A stretch of DNA of 64,000 bases from Bradyrhizobium sp. 195 (GTDB lineage Bacteria > Pseudomonadota > Alphaproteobacteria > Rhizobiales > Xanthobacteraceae). Location of the stretch: contig NZ_CP082161.1 in the NCBI RefSeq assembly GCF_023101665.1, positions 7,980,501 through 8,044,500 of the forward strand, written 5' to 3'. This document shows, in pieces, positions 1-5,792 of this stretch. The notes under the pieces are model-generated. The model saw only the letters and a list, made by a program, of their open reading frames with translations. It was not told the origin of the DNA and searched no databases. The translations under genes were made by a program, and so were the position numbers. Position 1 is the stretch's first letter. Each line of letters begins with the position of its first letter.

Positions 1-700
1 CATTCGAGAGCCCATTACGCTGCAGCAGCTCTGGCATATCAACAAAGAAAAGTTGCTCAACGAATTTGTCCGCGCATTGCGAGTCCTCGCCTAGCACGAA
101 GAATATCTGCGGCCGCACTACATCCCGCTCCAGCTCGGATTCTATCGCTTCGCGGAAATATCGTCGTTGCGTGCGTCGGTCGCACAGATAAGGTAGCAGC
201 CGAGCGAATCTTTTCGACCGCGCTTTTCCCGACTGATTTGGCGCTACTCCCTCATTCAACACAAATCGATGCAGCTCCGCAATTAATTCATCAAGGTTGG
301 TGGAGCCCGTCCGATCGAAAGCGGACAGGTCGACGGCCTGCCTGATCCGCACCAAGCCGCTCATTTCCTCGCGGCCAATATCGTCAAGTTTGGCTATGAC
401 CAGCTTGTTCTTTGCGCTGCCATGGTCGAACTCTCGGAAAAGAGAATCAGAGCGCGCGGGATTGTTCGAATTTCGAGAGAGAAAGAAAAGAACGCAGGCC
501 GCGCCCTCATACGCTTTGCGTATTTCGTCCTCCCACGATGCGCCGGACCGTATACCCGGGAGCGCTAATCGGTGCGCGGCAATGCCAACTTCACCCGGTC
601 GATCAATCCATAGTGGGATTCCGGCTGCCAGAAGTGCCCCTAGTATGGGCTTCACGGTCGCTCTATCTAAGCTGGCGTAGGAAATGAAAATGTAGCGCAT
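1..700 (-). CDS. TIR-domain protein with probable iSTAND region (partial, 3' end outside window)
   Basis: The reverse strand reads open from an ATG at 700 to the window edge, 233 codons with no stop. Residues 1-100 look like a TIR domain: the opening strand reads YIFISYASLD, then GIPLWID near residue 27, a WEDEI helix near 56 and VLFFLS near 70. Glu90 in LFREF is a candidate for the catalytic Glu of NAD-cleaving TIRs. Residues 165-218 carry LPYLCDR followed by RPQIFFVLGED, which resemble the LCDR and HG-type blocks described for inactive-STAND (iSTAND) domains of bacterial conflict systems; this match is from memory. The role would be an NAD-depleting or signalling immune effector, by inference. 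The partner gene should lie left of the window. Confidence 0.75.
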   Translation of the reverse strand, partial: MRYIFISYASLDRATVKPILGALLAAGIPLWIDRPGEVGIAAHRLALPGIRSGASWEDEIRKAYEGAACVLFFLSRNSNNPARSDSLFREFDHGSAKNKLVIAKLDDIGREEMSGLVRIRQAVDLSAFDRTGSTNLDELIAELHRFVLNEGVAPNQSGKARSKRFARLLPYLCDRRTQRRYFREAIESELERDVVRPQIFFVLGEDSQCADKFVEQLFFVDMPELLQRNGLSN

Positions 701-1379
701 CGGCAAACAGCCTGCTGCAATAGGAGACAGTCACCTAAAGTTGCTAGGCTCTCACCACCTAATTTCTCTGTCAATTGGAAATTGTCTCCGCTAGTACAGC
801 AGACTGACTGACGCCGCATTGCGGAAAACCAAAGCTGACACATCAAACCGGGGACCAGCTTTCCAAATCGGCACCGTCAAACATACATGTTAGGTCATTG
901 CCTTTGACGGGTCGCGTAGCGTCTTCGTCTTGCCTTGATCCAGGCGCGTCGGACGCTTTGGCATTCCGCGGGCACTTTATTGGGAACTCGCGCGGGCGCG
1001 CTTCCATAGAGAAAACCGTCTAGGAACCCCGGGCCTAATATCGCTGCCAATCGTTTTATGGAACATTTGATAAGCCTCGCCCTTCAATGAGGTTTAGATC
1101 TTTGCTGTGCGGCTTCCTCCTGCACCCATGGGGACGTCGCGGCTGCACATGATTCGACACCCATGTCCTGTGGTTGTATTGATTCATTAGCAAAGCCGGT
1201 TTCGATGGCTCCTGCGGCGTTTCTAGCGACGGAGGATCAAGCCTCAACAATTACCGCGGCAATTACAATCCAGACGAGGTAAACTTCGGGCCTCAAGTAC
1301 AACTAAAGATTGCGACTCGACGAATACGGAACTACAATTTTTTATAGAGGAACGACACCGCATGAGCAGGTGAACAGAA
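701..1379. other. Intergenic stretch with no convincing gene
   Basis: About 680 bases between the divergent TIR gene and the TIR-like fragment. It is more AT-rich than the rest of the window. The only open frames are short and lack a good start. It probably contains the promoters of both flanking genes, but no clear -35/-10 pair was recognised. Confidence 0.4.
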
Positions 1380-1510
1380 TGGCTAAGCCCAAGGTTTTTG
1401 TCAGTTACGATCATTCTGAAGACAGCGATTATAAGCGATTGCTTCAGGCTTGGGATGCAAATCCTAACTTCAAGTTCGACTTCGATAGTAGGGGCAACTT
1501 GCCTGTGTAA
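1380..1510 (+). pseudogene. Truncated TIR-like protein (ThsB/DUF1863 family) fragment
   Basis: An ATG at 1380 opens a 43-residue frame. Its first 39 residues match the start of the TIR-like DUF1863 family that includes the Thoeris sensor ThsB: KVFVSYDHSED, then LLQAWDANPNF and FDFDSRG. It stops after four unrelated residues, whereas the family runs well over 100. A faint second block reading VTIIGK appears in another frame near 1520, consistent with an internal deletion plus frameshift. It is probably a decayed defence gene. A short functional peptide is possible but less likely. Family assignment is from memory. Confidence 0.55.
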
Positions 1511-1663: not shown

Positions 1664-2092
1664 ATGCCGATCCTCAAGTCCCTCTCGTTCACCGCGTTGC
1701 CCAAAGCTGCCAATGACCCGGTCCAGATGCGCCGGACCAAGTTCATCGCCAAGCTGGAGGAGCAGAAGTTGCTCCTCGCCGATCCGAACCACATCCGGAC
1801 CGTCCAGCGCTGGACCAAGGTCAACGGCGAGCGTCAAGCTACGACCAAGCAACAGGCTGTCCGTCCCTGGTGGAAGACCGACGCGAGCGGACAGGTGGTC
1901 ATGTCGGTCAAGTTTGGATCGAAGCCGATGGAGTTCGAGAAGGGCAAGGCCGGCATCGTCGTCGGCTCGAAGGACAAGCTGCCTGCTGTCATCGATGCCC
2001 TGATCGGAGCTGTCCGTGCCGGCGAGCTGGACGAGCACTTCAGCCAAGCTGCCAAGACCAGCGGCATCGGCAGGTCCCGGAAAGCCGCTTGA
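1664..2092 (+). CDS. DUF6641 family protein
   Basis: The frame encodes 142 residues beginning MPILKSLSFTALPKA. The body is basic and carries RPWWKTDASG and FEKGKAGIVVGSKDKLP, which I recognise as features of the DUF6641 family. No catalytic motif, signal peptide or membrane segment is visible. The family has no known function that I can name. It lies between a decayed TIR-like gene and an XRE regulator, so it probably belongs to the accessory block. A stretch AACAACGGAGAACCCGG just upstream contains GGAG and could serve as ribosome binding site. Confidence 0.75.
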   Translation: MPILKSLSFTALPKAANDPVQMRRTKFIAKLEEQKLLLADPNHIRTVQRWTKVNGERQATTKQQAVRPWWKTDASGQVVMSVKFGSKPMEFEKGKAGIVVGSKDKLPAVIDALIGAVRAGELDEHFSQAAKTSGIGRSRKAA

Positions 2093-2621: not shown

Positions 2622-2861
2622 TCAGCCAGCCTTCCGACGGCTAGTAGCCCTGGTTGGCTTCCGGAAAAACTCGGCCGGGTCCACGTCCAGGATCTTGGCC
2701 AGCTTCTCGATGATCTCCAGGCCGACGTAGGTCACGGCCCGTTCGACCCGGCTTAGGTAAGCCCGGTCCACTCCAGCATCGTTCGCCAGCCGCTCCTGCG
2801 AGAGCTTCCGGTCATGCCGGATGCGCCTGAGGTTGGTCGCGAAAACTTGGCGAAGGTCCAT
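2622..2861 (-). CDS. XRE-family helix-turn-helix transcriptional regulator
   Basis: This 79-residue protein is essentially a single Cro/C1-type HTH domain. Residues 5-65 contain RIRHDRKLSQERLANDAGVD (recognition region) followed by YLSRVERAVTYVGLEIIEKLAKIL, the usual helix 3 and helix 4-5 pattern. A basic tail follows. Such small regulators usually bind as dimers to palindromic operators and often govern mobile or defence modules. The gene reads away from the exported protein at 2959, so it may control itself and that neighbour; this is inference. Confidence 0.9.
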   Translation of the reverse strand: MDLRQVFATNLRRIRHDRKLSQERLANDAGVDRAYLSRVERAVTYVGLEIIEKLAKILDVDPAEFFRKPTRATSRRKAG

Positions 2862-3417: not shown

Positions 3418-3551
3418 GTGGATGAGCTTTGGGTAGTGCCAGGCCGACTACCGAGGCGCACTGACCGAAAATTTGTGTGGGGCGGAATGTGGGGCTCAGC
3501 TACCCTGAAATTCGATAAATCAATTAACATCAAGGGTATGCGGATAACTCG

Positions 3552-3641
3552 TGGCGGAGAGAGTGGGATTCGAACCCACGGTACGGTTTCCCGCACACAC
3601 GCTTTCCAAGCGTGCGCCTTAAGCCACTCGGCCATCTCTCC
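3552..3641 (-). tRNA. tRNA-Ser (anticodon GGA)
   Basis: On the reverse strand the gene starts GGAGAGATGGCCGAG and ends TCTCTCCGCCA, giving a seven-pair acceptor stem, discriminator G and an encoded CCA. The anticodon arm CGCTTGGAAAGCG shows anticodon GGA. A long variable arm and the T-arm GGGTTCGAATCCC are present, as expected of serine tRNA. Its 3' end faces the accessory block at 1-3550. Confidence 0.97.
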
Positions 3642-3834
3642 GGAGCGCCCTCTCTTGAAGGGGCGCCGATGATTTTGCAAGGGATCGAAGAAGAATCGCG
3701 CGAATTTTCCGCAACTTGTTGTATTTGCGAGATAATATCTGCCGTCGCACATGCCTTGGCCGGCCTGGCGGCTGAACCCGCGGCGGGTTTAGGACGACGA
3801 TTCACACGAGAGCGCCAACGCGACCGGGGATGCC

Positions 3835-4176
3835 ATGACGATCCGCAAGACCATCACCGTGCTGGGCCTGATATCGGCCCTTGTCCCCGTCTTCGCCGTG
3901 CCGGCCCTGGCCCAGGTCTGCACCCGGCAGGGCGTCGATGTGAGCTGCAACGACGGGCGGCGCGGCGGGCTATCCGGCGATGCCATCATCTGGCCGGACG
4001 GCACGCGCTCGAGCTCGAGCCCGCATCCAAGCGTGATCATCGGCAACAAGAGTTCGGTGCATGTCGGGCCCGGCGTGTTCGTCGGCCAGGGCAAGGGCAT
4101 GGTGCCGATGGACGATCCCAACGCGCCGAACAAGCGGCAGTGCGCGATCCTGGATGGCGTGTCGTATTGCTATTGA
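3835..4176 (+). CDS. Small secreted protein of unknown function
   Basis: Encodes 113 residues. Residues 1-26 form a clear signal peptide ending VPALAQ. The mature part is about 87 residues, Gly/Ser-rich, with four cysteines (QVCTRQG, VSCNDG, RQCAIL, SYCY) that could form two disulphides. GGGGAT lies just before the ATG. No family is recognised; similar short exported proteins are common in Bradyrhizobium, from memory. Confidence 0.75.
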   Translation: MTIRKTITVLGLISALVPVFAVPALAQVCTRQGVDVSCNDGRRGGLSGDAIIWPDGTRSSSSPHPSVIIGNKSSVHVGPGVFVGQGKGMVPMDDPNAPNKRQCAILDGVSYCY

Positions 4177-4197
4177 AGCTCGTTATTTGCGGCTAGC

Positions 4198-4321
4198 CGT
4201 CATGCCCGGGCTTGTCCGCCTGCGCGGCCGAAGCCGCTTCGGCGCGGCGAAGGCCGTGCATCCACGTTCTTTGTAGCTTGGGGCGAGGCGTGGATGACCG
4301 GGACAAAGCCCGGCCATGACG
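4198..4321. repeat. Palindromic intergenic repeat
   Basis: The left end reads CGTCATGCCCGGGCTTGTCC and the right end GGACAAAGCCCGGCCATGACG, which are nearly exact reverse complements. Inner arms around CGTGCATCCACG and CGTGGATG also pair. It separates the secreted protein from the convergent otsA and may act as a terminator-like hairpin. Confidence 0.8.
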
Positions 4322-4328
4322 CAGGAAC

Positions 4329-5792
4329 CTAAATCAACCGCACGCCTGATATCGCCGACCTCAGCCAGCGCAGTGCTTGCGGCGGCTGCGCTGCGAGCGG
4401 CGCTTCCACGGCCTTCTCGGTCCGGCATTTTTCCAGCTCTGCGACGAAGTCGGCCGACCATTGCTGGATGGTGTGGCCGCGCAGCTTCTTCATCATCGCG
4501 TCCCAGCGCATCTTGCGCTCGGTGAGCGGCATTGCGGCCGCCACCGCGATCGCGCGCGCCATGCCGTCGATGTCGTGCGGATTGACCAGCAAGGCGGTAT
4601 CGAGCTCGTTGGCGGCGCCCGCAAACTTCGACAGCACCAGCACGCCGGGATCGGCGGGATTTTGCGCGGCGACGTATTCCTTCGCGACGAGGTTCATGCC
4701 GTCATGGAGCGGCGTCACTACGCCGACCTGCGCTGTCCGATAAAGACCAGCGAGCACGGCCTGACTGAAACCCTTGTTCAAATAGCGGATCGGGGTCCAG
4801 TCCACTTCGCCGTGGCGGCCGTTGACGTCGGTGACGAGGCGCGCGACATCGTTCTGGAGATTGCCATAGGCCTCGATCGCGCCGCGCGAGGGGTTGGCGA
4901 TCTGAAGCAGCGAGATGCTGCGCGCAAACTGCGGCTGGTCCGTCCAGAGCCGGTCGAATGCGCTGATGCGGTTGACGAGACCTTTCGAATAGTCGAGGCG
5001 GTCAACGCCGATCGCGAGCCGCTCGCCGTTGAGGCTGCGCCGCAGCCGCGACACATCCGGATGCGATGCCGATTTCGCGGCATAGGCTGCGAACTTCTCC
5101 GCATCGATCCCGATCGGAAATACCTCGCAGCGGGTGCGGCCATGCTGGGAGATCGCAACACCGTCCTCGATGGTGAGGCCGAGCTCGCCGCCGACATAGC
5201 CGAGGAAGTTCTGGCAATCCTCATTGGTCTGGAAGCCGAGCAGATCGTAGGCCAGCATCGCCGTGATCAGCTCACGATGATTGGGCACGCCTTGCATTAC
5301 CGCGGTGACCGGCCACGGCGTATGCAGAAAGAAGCCGATCGGATCGTTGACGCCAAGATCACGCAGTTCCGCACCGAGCGCGAGGAAGTGATAATCCTGC
5401 ACCCAGAACGCGGTCTTGGTTTTTCGGAAGCGCATCAAGGCGCGCGCCATGAAGGCGTTGACCTCGCGATAGCTGACATAATCTTCGCGGGAGACGCGAA
5501 TCAGATCGCTGCGCGAATGCAGCGCCGGCCACAGCGCCGAATTGGCGAAGCCTTCGTAATAGCCGCCGTAATGCGCCGCCGGCAGATCCAGCGTCGCAAT
5601 CGCGCCCGTTCCCAGTGCTTCGATCTCGGCGAATGGTTCCTTCTGATGGCCATCGCGCACCCGGCCCGAAGATCCCACCCAGATCGCGCCCGAATGTTCC
5701 ACCACCGGCAACAAGGCCGCCGCGAGACCGCCCGTCATGGGCTCGTTAGGCTTGCCGCGCGCGACGCGATTCGAAACGACGACTAAGTTCAC
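4329..5792 (-). CDS. otsA: Trehalose-6-phosphate synthase (UDP-forming)
   Basis: Encodes 487 residues, normal for the GT20 family. It joins UDP-glucose and glucose 6-phosphate to give trehalose 6-phosphate in the cytosol. Family motifs are visible: NLVVVSNR at the N-terminus, the WVGSSG block, HTPWP near residue 157, a GVDRLDYSKGL block near 260, and HDGMNLVAKEYV near 360. The start is GTG at 5792, preceded by AGGAGGGG at ideal spacing. It lies about 240 bases downstream of otsB, in the same direction, and has its own candidate stress promoter. Confidence 0.95.
   Translation of the reverse strand: MNLVVVSNRVARGKPNEPMTGGLAAALLPVVEHSGAIWVGSSGRVRDGHQKEPFAEIEALGTGAIATLDLPAAHYGGYYEGFANSALWPALHSRSDLIRVSREDYVSYREVNAFMARALMRFRKTKTAFWVQDYHFLALGAELRDLGVNDPIGFFLHTPWPVTAVMQGVPNHRELITAMLAYDLLGFQTNEDCQNFLGYVGGELGLTIEDGVAISQHGRTRCEVFPIGIDAEKFAAYAAKSASHPDVSRLRRSLNGERLAIGVDRLDYSKGLVNRISAFDRLWTDQPQFARSISLLQIANPSRGAIEAYGNLQNDVARLVTDVNGRHGEVDWTPIRYLNKGFSQAVLAGLYRTAQVGVVTPLHDGMNLVAKEYVAAQNPADPGVLVLSKFAGAANELDTALLVNPHDIDGMARAIAVAAAMPLTERKMRWDAMMKKLRGHTIQQWSADFVAELEKCRTEKAVEAPLAAQPPQALRWLRSAISGVRLI

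Follow-up and report, generated by a model that had tools for sequence, protein, structure and literature searches.

A predicted TIR-headed MoxR-vWA-iSTAND ternary conflict system on a tRNA-Ser island of Bradyrhizobium sp. 195

The 64,000-nucleotide stretch of the Bradyrhizobium sp. 195 genome analyzed here (the window) corresponds to G000:C1:7980501-8044500, and its left edge cuts through a minus-strand gene. An initial annotation of the visible part had read it as a TIR domain fused to a probable iSTAND region, in a frame open to the window edge and with a partner further to the left. In the whole genome this frame (window 706..2) ends normally at C1:7979839 and is unbroken outside the window, and extending the sequence leftwards, as had been proposed, yields a complete gene in which both Pfam families score over their cut-offs:

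G000:C1:7979839-7981206, minus strand: the whole TIR-iSTAND gene, 455 aa from TTG (window 706) or 453 aa from ATG (window 700).
Window 1..706, minus strand: the 5' half of this gene, open to the window edge and intact beyond it.
Window 317..691, minus strand: TIR domain, residues 6-130 of the 455-aa product; Pfam TIR_2, 48.7 bits (cut-off 28).
Window 1..193, minus strand: first part of the iSTAND domain (residues 172-324), which continues left of the window; Pfam iSTAND, 52.5 bits (cut-off 24).

The anticipated partner proved to be a pair of overlapping genes. The TIR-iSTAND gene (gene 1) is followed by a gene for a MoxR AAA+ ATPase (gene 2) and one for a 1013-aa membrane protein of vWA type (gene 3), both left of the window, with overlaps of 4 nt between genes 1 and 2 and 17 nt between genes 2 and 3. 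Close named relatives of the three products occur in Bradyrhizobium japonicum USDA 38, Mesorhizobium and Rhizobium leguminosarum, and the catalytic domains recognized in the operon are the TIR and MoxR domains only.

The predicted model of the TIR-iSTAND protein matches solved TIR and ORC/STAND-type AAA+ folds in a fold search, in keeping with the proposed fusion (the two structure models used here, of this protein and of the 1013-aa protein, are of medium quality, with mean pLDDT values of 72.6 and 72.3). Seven homologues (36-81% identity) cover 97-100% of the TIR-iSTAND protein when aligned, and each domain has columns that are invariant. E90 (453-aa numbering) is glutamate in 9/9 aligned homologues and, from its position, is a candidate for the catalytic glutamate of the TIR domain. 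Sequence searches of the PDB gave no usable alignment over the E90 stretch with a characterized NADase: the TIR-iSTAND profile returned no matches, the TIR domain alone returned only a chance lectin (E 1.8), and the TIR domain of the related locus L054 returned 22 sequences at E<=1, mostly TIRs, in displayed alignments that end before the E90 stretch. At the place of the P-loop the iSTAND domain reads GEDSQCAD, in which C209, A210 and D211 are invariant in 9/9, and the Walker A pattern GxxxxGK[ST] is not seen there in the alignment of nine sequences, which points to a catalytically inactive STAND module, a criterion of the class to which we assign the operon below. No transmembrane (TM) helix was called in the protein, which is thus presumably cytoplasmic. 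The LCDR motif singled out by the initial annotation falls within LxxLxDRxxQ, a motif found in the majority of the 56 upstream proteins aligned (described below); the accompanying HG-type block is best fitted by EFDHG but, in our reading, is located in the TIR part and not in the iSTAND part. A contig scan with the TIR-iSTAND alignment gave 54 pattern matches and no relatives, and tblastn against plasmids matched one of 72,556 records, a Nostoc plasmid, at 24.5% identity over 68%. PADLOC returned two weak matches at E<=1, both in the first 36 residues (SAVED_TIR, 0.0054; PDC-S66, 0.071). This genome holds six TIR_2 matches over the cut-off, and the TIR of the window is the second weakest by score.

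The MoxR protein is short (337 aa) and matches AAA_5 in Pfam at 35 bits; its Walker A residues (G58-P60-G61-G63-K64) and its Walker B motif LIDE are invariant in 21 sequences, and Midasin is matched in the PDB search (E 2.4e-05). Searches of the three operon products with Pfam and PADLOC found no ThsA, SAVED-domain, APAZ or Argonaute part, save the weak SAVED_TIR match of the TIR protein, and Thoeris, SPARTA and TIR-SAVED CBASS were not adopted as the identity of the operon.

Gene 3 encodes, in order, a CoxE-type four-helix domain (four helices at residues 11-86 in the predicted model), two TM helices separated by a short loop, a degenerate vWA domain (region 250-440) and, after a linker, the third TM helix (TM3) and Sel1 repeats, the TM helices being called by a crude hydrophobicity rule. 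Homology to its N-terminus is seen in 43 segments from other loci, in an alignment made with the same profile and so not independent. Comparison of the other loci with the vWA and N-terminal profiles of the Sel1 clade by hhalign gave 99.9% and 99.4%, values likewise not counted as independent, because both alignments were cut from one alignment made with that profile. No Pfam vWA family was found in the protein itself, or in the 11 Sel1-clade proteins even at E<=10. When the vWA parts of ten relatives were scanned with Pfam, that of locus L080 exceeded the VWA_CoxE cut-off of 26.4 bits, scoring 31.4 bits where it aligns with gene 3, that of L070 stayed below it with 15.7 bits, and the remaining eight gave no vWA match. 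Bridging homology via L080, together with the published description of the class, thus identifies the alpha/beta region of gene 3 as a predicted vWA domain. Fold searches with the 1013-aa model listed Sel1, TPR and other helical-repeat chains and no vWA chain; they are silent on the vWA fold, since Sel1/TPR chains filled the result lists. The metal site is only partly kept: the first aspartate is present in 10/11 Sel1-clade members vs 42/63 aligned segments of other loci, the second in 0/11 vs 33/60, and the DxSxS motif in 0/63 aligned segments. The other ten Sel1-clade homologues are 35-67% identical to gene 3, and because it is common to 11/11 at this divergence, the loss of the second aspartate looks inherited.

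Residues flanking TM3 bear on which side of the membrane the tail occupies. K/R number 2-6 before TM3 and 0-1 after it in 10/11 homologues with TM3 called (for homologue P0017 the segment at 646 was used), and in 44 other loci with a TM helix at this place the count before vs after is higher in 36, equal in 5 and lower in 3. C668 and C703, directly after TM3, are invariant in 11/11. The K/R bias and these cysteines suggest that the Sel1 tail probably lies outside the inner membrane. The tail itself gave Sel1 and weak TPR matches only, with no catalytic domain found by Pfam or fold search.

A comparison of the gene neighbors of homologues, as the initial annotation had advised, was made by a contig scan for MoxR relatives, from which the best 80 of at least 483 relatives (at least 584 stretches) were kept; since these 80 loci were chosen by MoxR similarity, the counts that follow are not frequencies in nature. 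The MoxR profile matches in 80/80, a homologue of the vWA protein (profile of its first 440 residues) or of the vWA-linker is present in 67/80, and an iSTAND homologue occurs in 42 at E<=0.1 (32 at 1e-3), the iSTAND profile having no match in the other 38. All three components lie somewhere in the locus in 41 of the best 80, and shuffled ORF proteins searched as a control on our profiles gave no matches. The loci span filamentous cyanobacteria and many other groups; the Bradyrhizobium/rhizobial lineage is, to our knowledge, not known as multicellular. The proteins upstream (n=56, our own and those of 55 of the 80 loci, the other 25 being omitted with the upstream frame cut, absent or doubtful) matched the Pfam families iSTAND (32), TIR_2 (17), DUF4062 (7), EAD11 (7) and trypsin-like (4), in a set that includes some plainly other proteins, such as one adenylosuccinate synthetase. 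A preprint describes DUF4062, in the part that concerns it, as an NADase resembling TIR that acts against phages (PMC13174449), so an NAD-directed head appears common in this upstream sample.

Swapping of N- and C-terminal domains is seen among the relatives. FGE-sulfatase tails occur in 18/45 loci with TM3 (our own and 44 others) and in 5/13 without it, in a census that leaves 23/80 loci unclassed, and TM3 gives no clean division of the tail types, as FGE-sulfatase is found in both groups. TIR_2 tails occur in 3/13 loci without TM3 and are not among the 25 commonest of the 124 families in the 45 with it. Tails of TIR-headed relatives are FGE-sulfatase-like (L041, L054) or combine WD40 with PASTA (L019). 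A locus of Sphingomonas colocasiae (L048:7404-14043) has the same gene order, a TIR head and a weak iSTAND match (E 0.0034), and the tail of its vWA protein after the TM helix is a penicillin-binding transpeptidase (PF00905, 1.4e-24), a cell-wall enzyme in a conflict-type locus.

The operon lies on an island of 38.7 kb at tRNA-Ser(GGA), about C1:7945404-7984065, with the following features:

C1:7945544-7946734: tyrosine integrase with arm-binding, central and catalytic domains, starting 140 bp past a 14-bp repeat.
G000:C1:7951482-7953782, plus strand: 766-aa protein joining an asparagine-synthase-like N-terminus to a C5 cytosine DNA methyltransferase, an unusual combination in a DNA-modification enzyme.
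G000:C1:7959570-7962208, minus strand: two overlapping radical-SAM genes, 398 and 485 aa, weakly viperin-like in PADLOC.
G000:C1:7968034-7970594 (L092:2034-3260 and 3437-4594), plus strand: type III-A retron, PRTase-wHTH and reverse transcriptase, ~5 kb left of the operon.
G000:C1:7972742-7975210, minus strand: Mrr-type nuclease with DEAD helicase, 822 aa, 593 bp downstream of the vWA gene.
Window 1664..2092, plus strand: DUF6641 protein, 29.3 bits (cut-off 27); an island gene, operon membership not implied.
Window 2622..2861, minus strand: small helix-turn-helix protein; an island gene, operon membership not implied.
Window 3552..3641, minus strand: tRNA-Ser(GGA), whose last 14 bases (3552-3565) form the right, attR-like boundary; DNA left of 3552 is island.

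The extent of the element follows from the recurrence of the 14 bp of the tRNA end at C1:7945404, the integrase adjoining that repeat, and the end of homology at the tRNA. Window 3480-4300 was compared with 60 genomes of the genus, this one included. Among the matches listed, one that starts at 3549-3552, the 3' end of the tRNA, is present in 56 of the 59 others, and none from another genome extends further left. Taken alone, such a sharp end could reflect intergenic DNA that is not conserved, and we give it weight only in combination with the repeat, the integrase and the drop in GC. In 2-kb bins the GC content of the island is mostly 0.52-0.59, vs 0.643 for the window; an exception is a GC-rich segment (0.63-0.67) near 7948-7954 kb, in which an IS21-type transposon lies. 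The island also has a second, short integrase. The reverse transcriptase and PRTase-wHTH protein by which a type III-A retron is predicted were both recognized (PADLOC RT_III-A 2.4e-163 and PRTase_III-A 4e-115; PRTase-CE and wHTH-PRTase_assc in Pfam), and the best PADLOC match of the 822-aa Mrr-type protein is the first part of an IIG REase-MTase (3.4e-90), and its Pfam matches include no methyltransferase family. Judged from these sequence features, the operon sits on a well-marked, predicted mobile defence island. Some 105 bp at window 4196-4300 recur often in related genomes and, among the matches listed, at five further sites of this genome, and are therefore regarded as a dispersed repeat.

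Two other explanations were weighed. According to the first, the genes are a housekeeping MoxR-vWA chaperone set of CoxD/CoxE-like type whose task would be the assembly of a metallo-protein or envelope complex, the TIR and iSTAND domains acting as scaffolds. The bridging homology to CoxE-type vWA domains is in its favor, as is the service of MoxR-vWA pairs in assembly in CoxDE and other systems, noted in passages of PMC7159879. Against it stand the AT-rich island with its retron, the swapping of N- and C-terminal domains among relatives, and rarity: PF19995, a profile that misses divergent iSTANDs, was matched at E<=0.001 in 1/195 genomes of the genus, 1/397 of the order and 3/398 of the phylum, in overlapping samples that each count our own genome. 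We consider a housekeeping role very unlikely. The second explanation, that the locus is a degenerating, non-functional island remnant, draws on the lost metal aspartate of the vWA domain and on a small, seemingly truncated ORF nearby. The latter is a 43-codon ORF start at window 1380-1510 on the plus strand that stops early; we take it to read like the beginning of a TIR-like protein, and as a Thoeris-like TIR remnant it has no Pfam, PADLOC or PDB match. However, the three long frames of the operon are intact and overlapping, the vWA change is shared by 11/11 homologues and appears inherited, and the TIR, MoxR and C668/C703 positions are invariant, which makes decay of the operon improbable in the extreme.

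The alternative that we favor is membership in a class predicted computationally in 2020. In the iSTAND ternary systems of Kaur et al. 2020, as set out in the passages of PMC7159879 that concern them, a MoxR and a CoxE-type vWA protein accompany an iSTAND protein that may carry a TIR domain; the MoxR is without the N- and C-terminal extensions seen in VMAP systems, and the vWA protein, with TM helices in some cases, ends in a variable tail (PEGA, OmpA, PASTA, Sel1) that usually follows a TM helix. Most but not all of these vWAs keep both metal-site aspartates, metal-site losses are reported for FtsH and beta-propeller systems, and iSTAND ternary systems are enriched in multicellular bacteria (same passages). 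Our operon shares with them the three components, the CoxE-type four-helix N-terminus, the N-terminal TM helix, the TM helix followed by a Sel1 tail and the TIR on the N-terminus of the iSTAND protein, and its third component is an iSTAND without Walker A encoded next to MoxR and a CoxE-type vWA protein. It differs from the account in these passages in its location on a tRNA-Ser island in a rhizobial lineage and in the absence of the second metal-site aspartate from 11/11 members of this Sel1 clade; possession of both aspartates is not a defining feature of the class. We are highly confident that the operon is a MoxR-vWA-iSTAND ternary conflict system, and the conflict role suspected at the outset is supported, at the level of prediction, by domains, gene neighbors and related loci. 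The suggestion that it might be an undescribed immune system did not hold: the operon is a further case of the class, whose organization, including TIR at the iSTAND N-terminus and Sel1 after a TM helix, was already described by comparative genomics in those passages of PMC7159879. A non-exhaustive search of the open-licence literature found no experimental test of any iSTAND ternary system.

Two better-known groups provide points of comparison. In Avs and other active STAND NTPases, the effector is found at the N-terminus of the STAND module. This is also the arrangement in passages of PMC10907252, and our protein resembles it in carrying TIR N-terminal to the STAND module. In contrast to those NTPases, the P-loop motif is absent here, energy would presumably come from MoxR, and the putative sensor tail belongs to a separate protein; Avs was for these reasons not adopted as the identity of the operon. 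With VMAP ternary systems, as portrayed in parts of PMC7159879 and PMC10907252, the operon shares the MoxR and vWA switch, a third component with an N-terminal signaling domain and a variable vWA tail, whereas here the third component is iSTAND, not VMAP, and the vWA protein is membrane-linked.

Taken as a whole, a MoxR-vWA-iSTAND system in which Sel1 senses and TIR executes is the likely explanation of the operon, although for the signaling direction itself we see about an even chance. From the families to which they belong, the TIR domain would act as an NADase, MoxR and vWA would have chaperone action and the operon would serve in defence; we infer, in addition, that Sel1 lies outside, with the tail as sensor and TIR as executioner. 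In this mechanism, the Sel1 tail (or the iSTAND part) would detect an envelope or phage cue, and the vWA domain would pass the signal to the MoxR ATPase, acting as a threshold switch. The iSTAND module would then let TIR domains assemble and become active, and these would consume NAD+ (or make an ADPR-type signal), such that the infected cell dies or stops growing. An abortive-infection output, as initially proposed, seems to us somewhat probable. For the sister VMAP systems, passages of PMC10907252 propose the vWA-protein tail as sensor and the N-terminal domain of the third component as effector, and DGRs that diversify such tails are read there as marking antigen sensors.

In the opposite direction, sensing, perhaps of nucleic acid, would fall to the iSTAND protein and TIR would produce a nucleotide signal; with MoxR-vWA providing the threshold, the TM-Sel1 tail would be the effector that acts on the cell wall. 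This direction is possible, and we are inclined against it. It is the authors' own reading in the relevant part of PMC7159879, where sensing is assigned to the third component and the effector role to the vWA tail, and where Sel1 is listed among peptidoglycan-associating effectors; a Sel1 tail could bind peptidoglycan as its output. Inactive STANDs have been proposed as nucleic-acid receptors (in a passage of PMC8195603), and the TIR-headed relative L048 has a penicillin-binding transpeptidase tail. The DGR-diversified tails of the sister systems, read as sensors in those passages of PMC10907252, argue the other way, as do the tail of gene 3, with Sel1 (and weak TPR) but no catalytic domain, and the TIR domain, with E90 kept in 9/9. 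Because the tail is without a known enzyme and the head has one, the anatomy fits the direction given in PMC10907252 better than that of Kaur et al., as far as the passages concerned go. This falls short of proof, since other TIR-headed loci carry transpeptidase (L048), FGE-sulfatase-like (L041, L054) or WD40 plus PASTA (L019) tails. Beyond the preferred reading, in which the tail senses and TIR executes, the operon might even be a Toll-like receptor split over three proteins: extracytoplasmic Sel1 would sense an envelope or phage cue, the vWA protein would relay the signal across the inner membrane, MoxR would set the threshold and the iSTAND-held TIR would destroy NAD+ in the cytoplasm, while a vWA domain with a partial metal site would contact MoxR otherwise than by MIDAS peptide capture. 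We regard this proposal, both parts taken together, as doubtful.

For the sister class, two opposed readings have been published, which differ in the end taken to sense and the end taken to kill. With TIR and MoxR catalysis on one side and a variable, non-enzymatic and probably periplasmic tail on the other, the operon of Bradyrhizobium sp. 195 would be suited to separating them.
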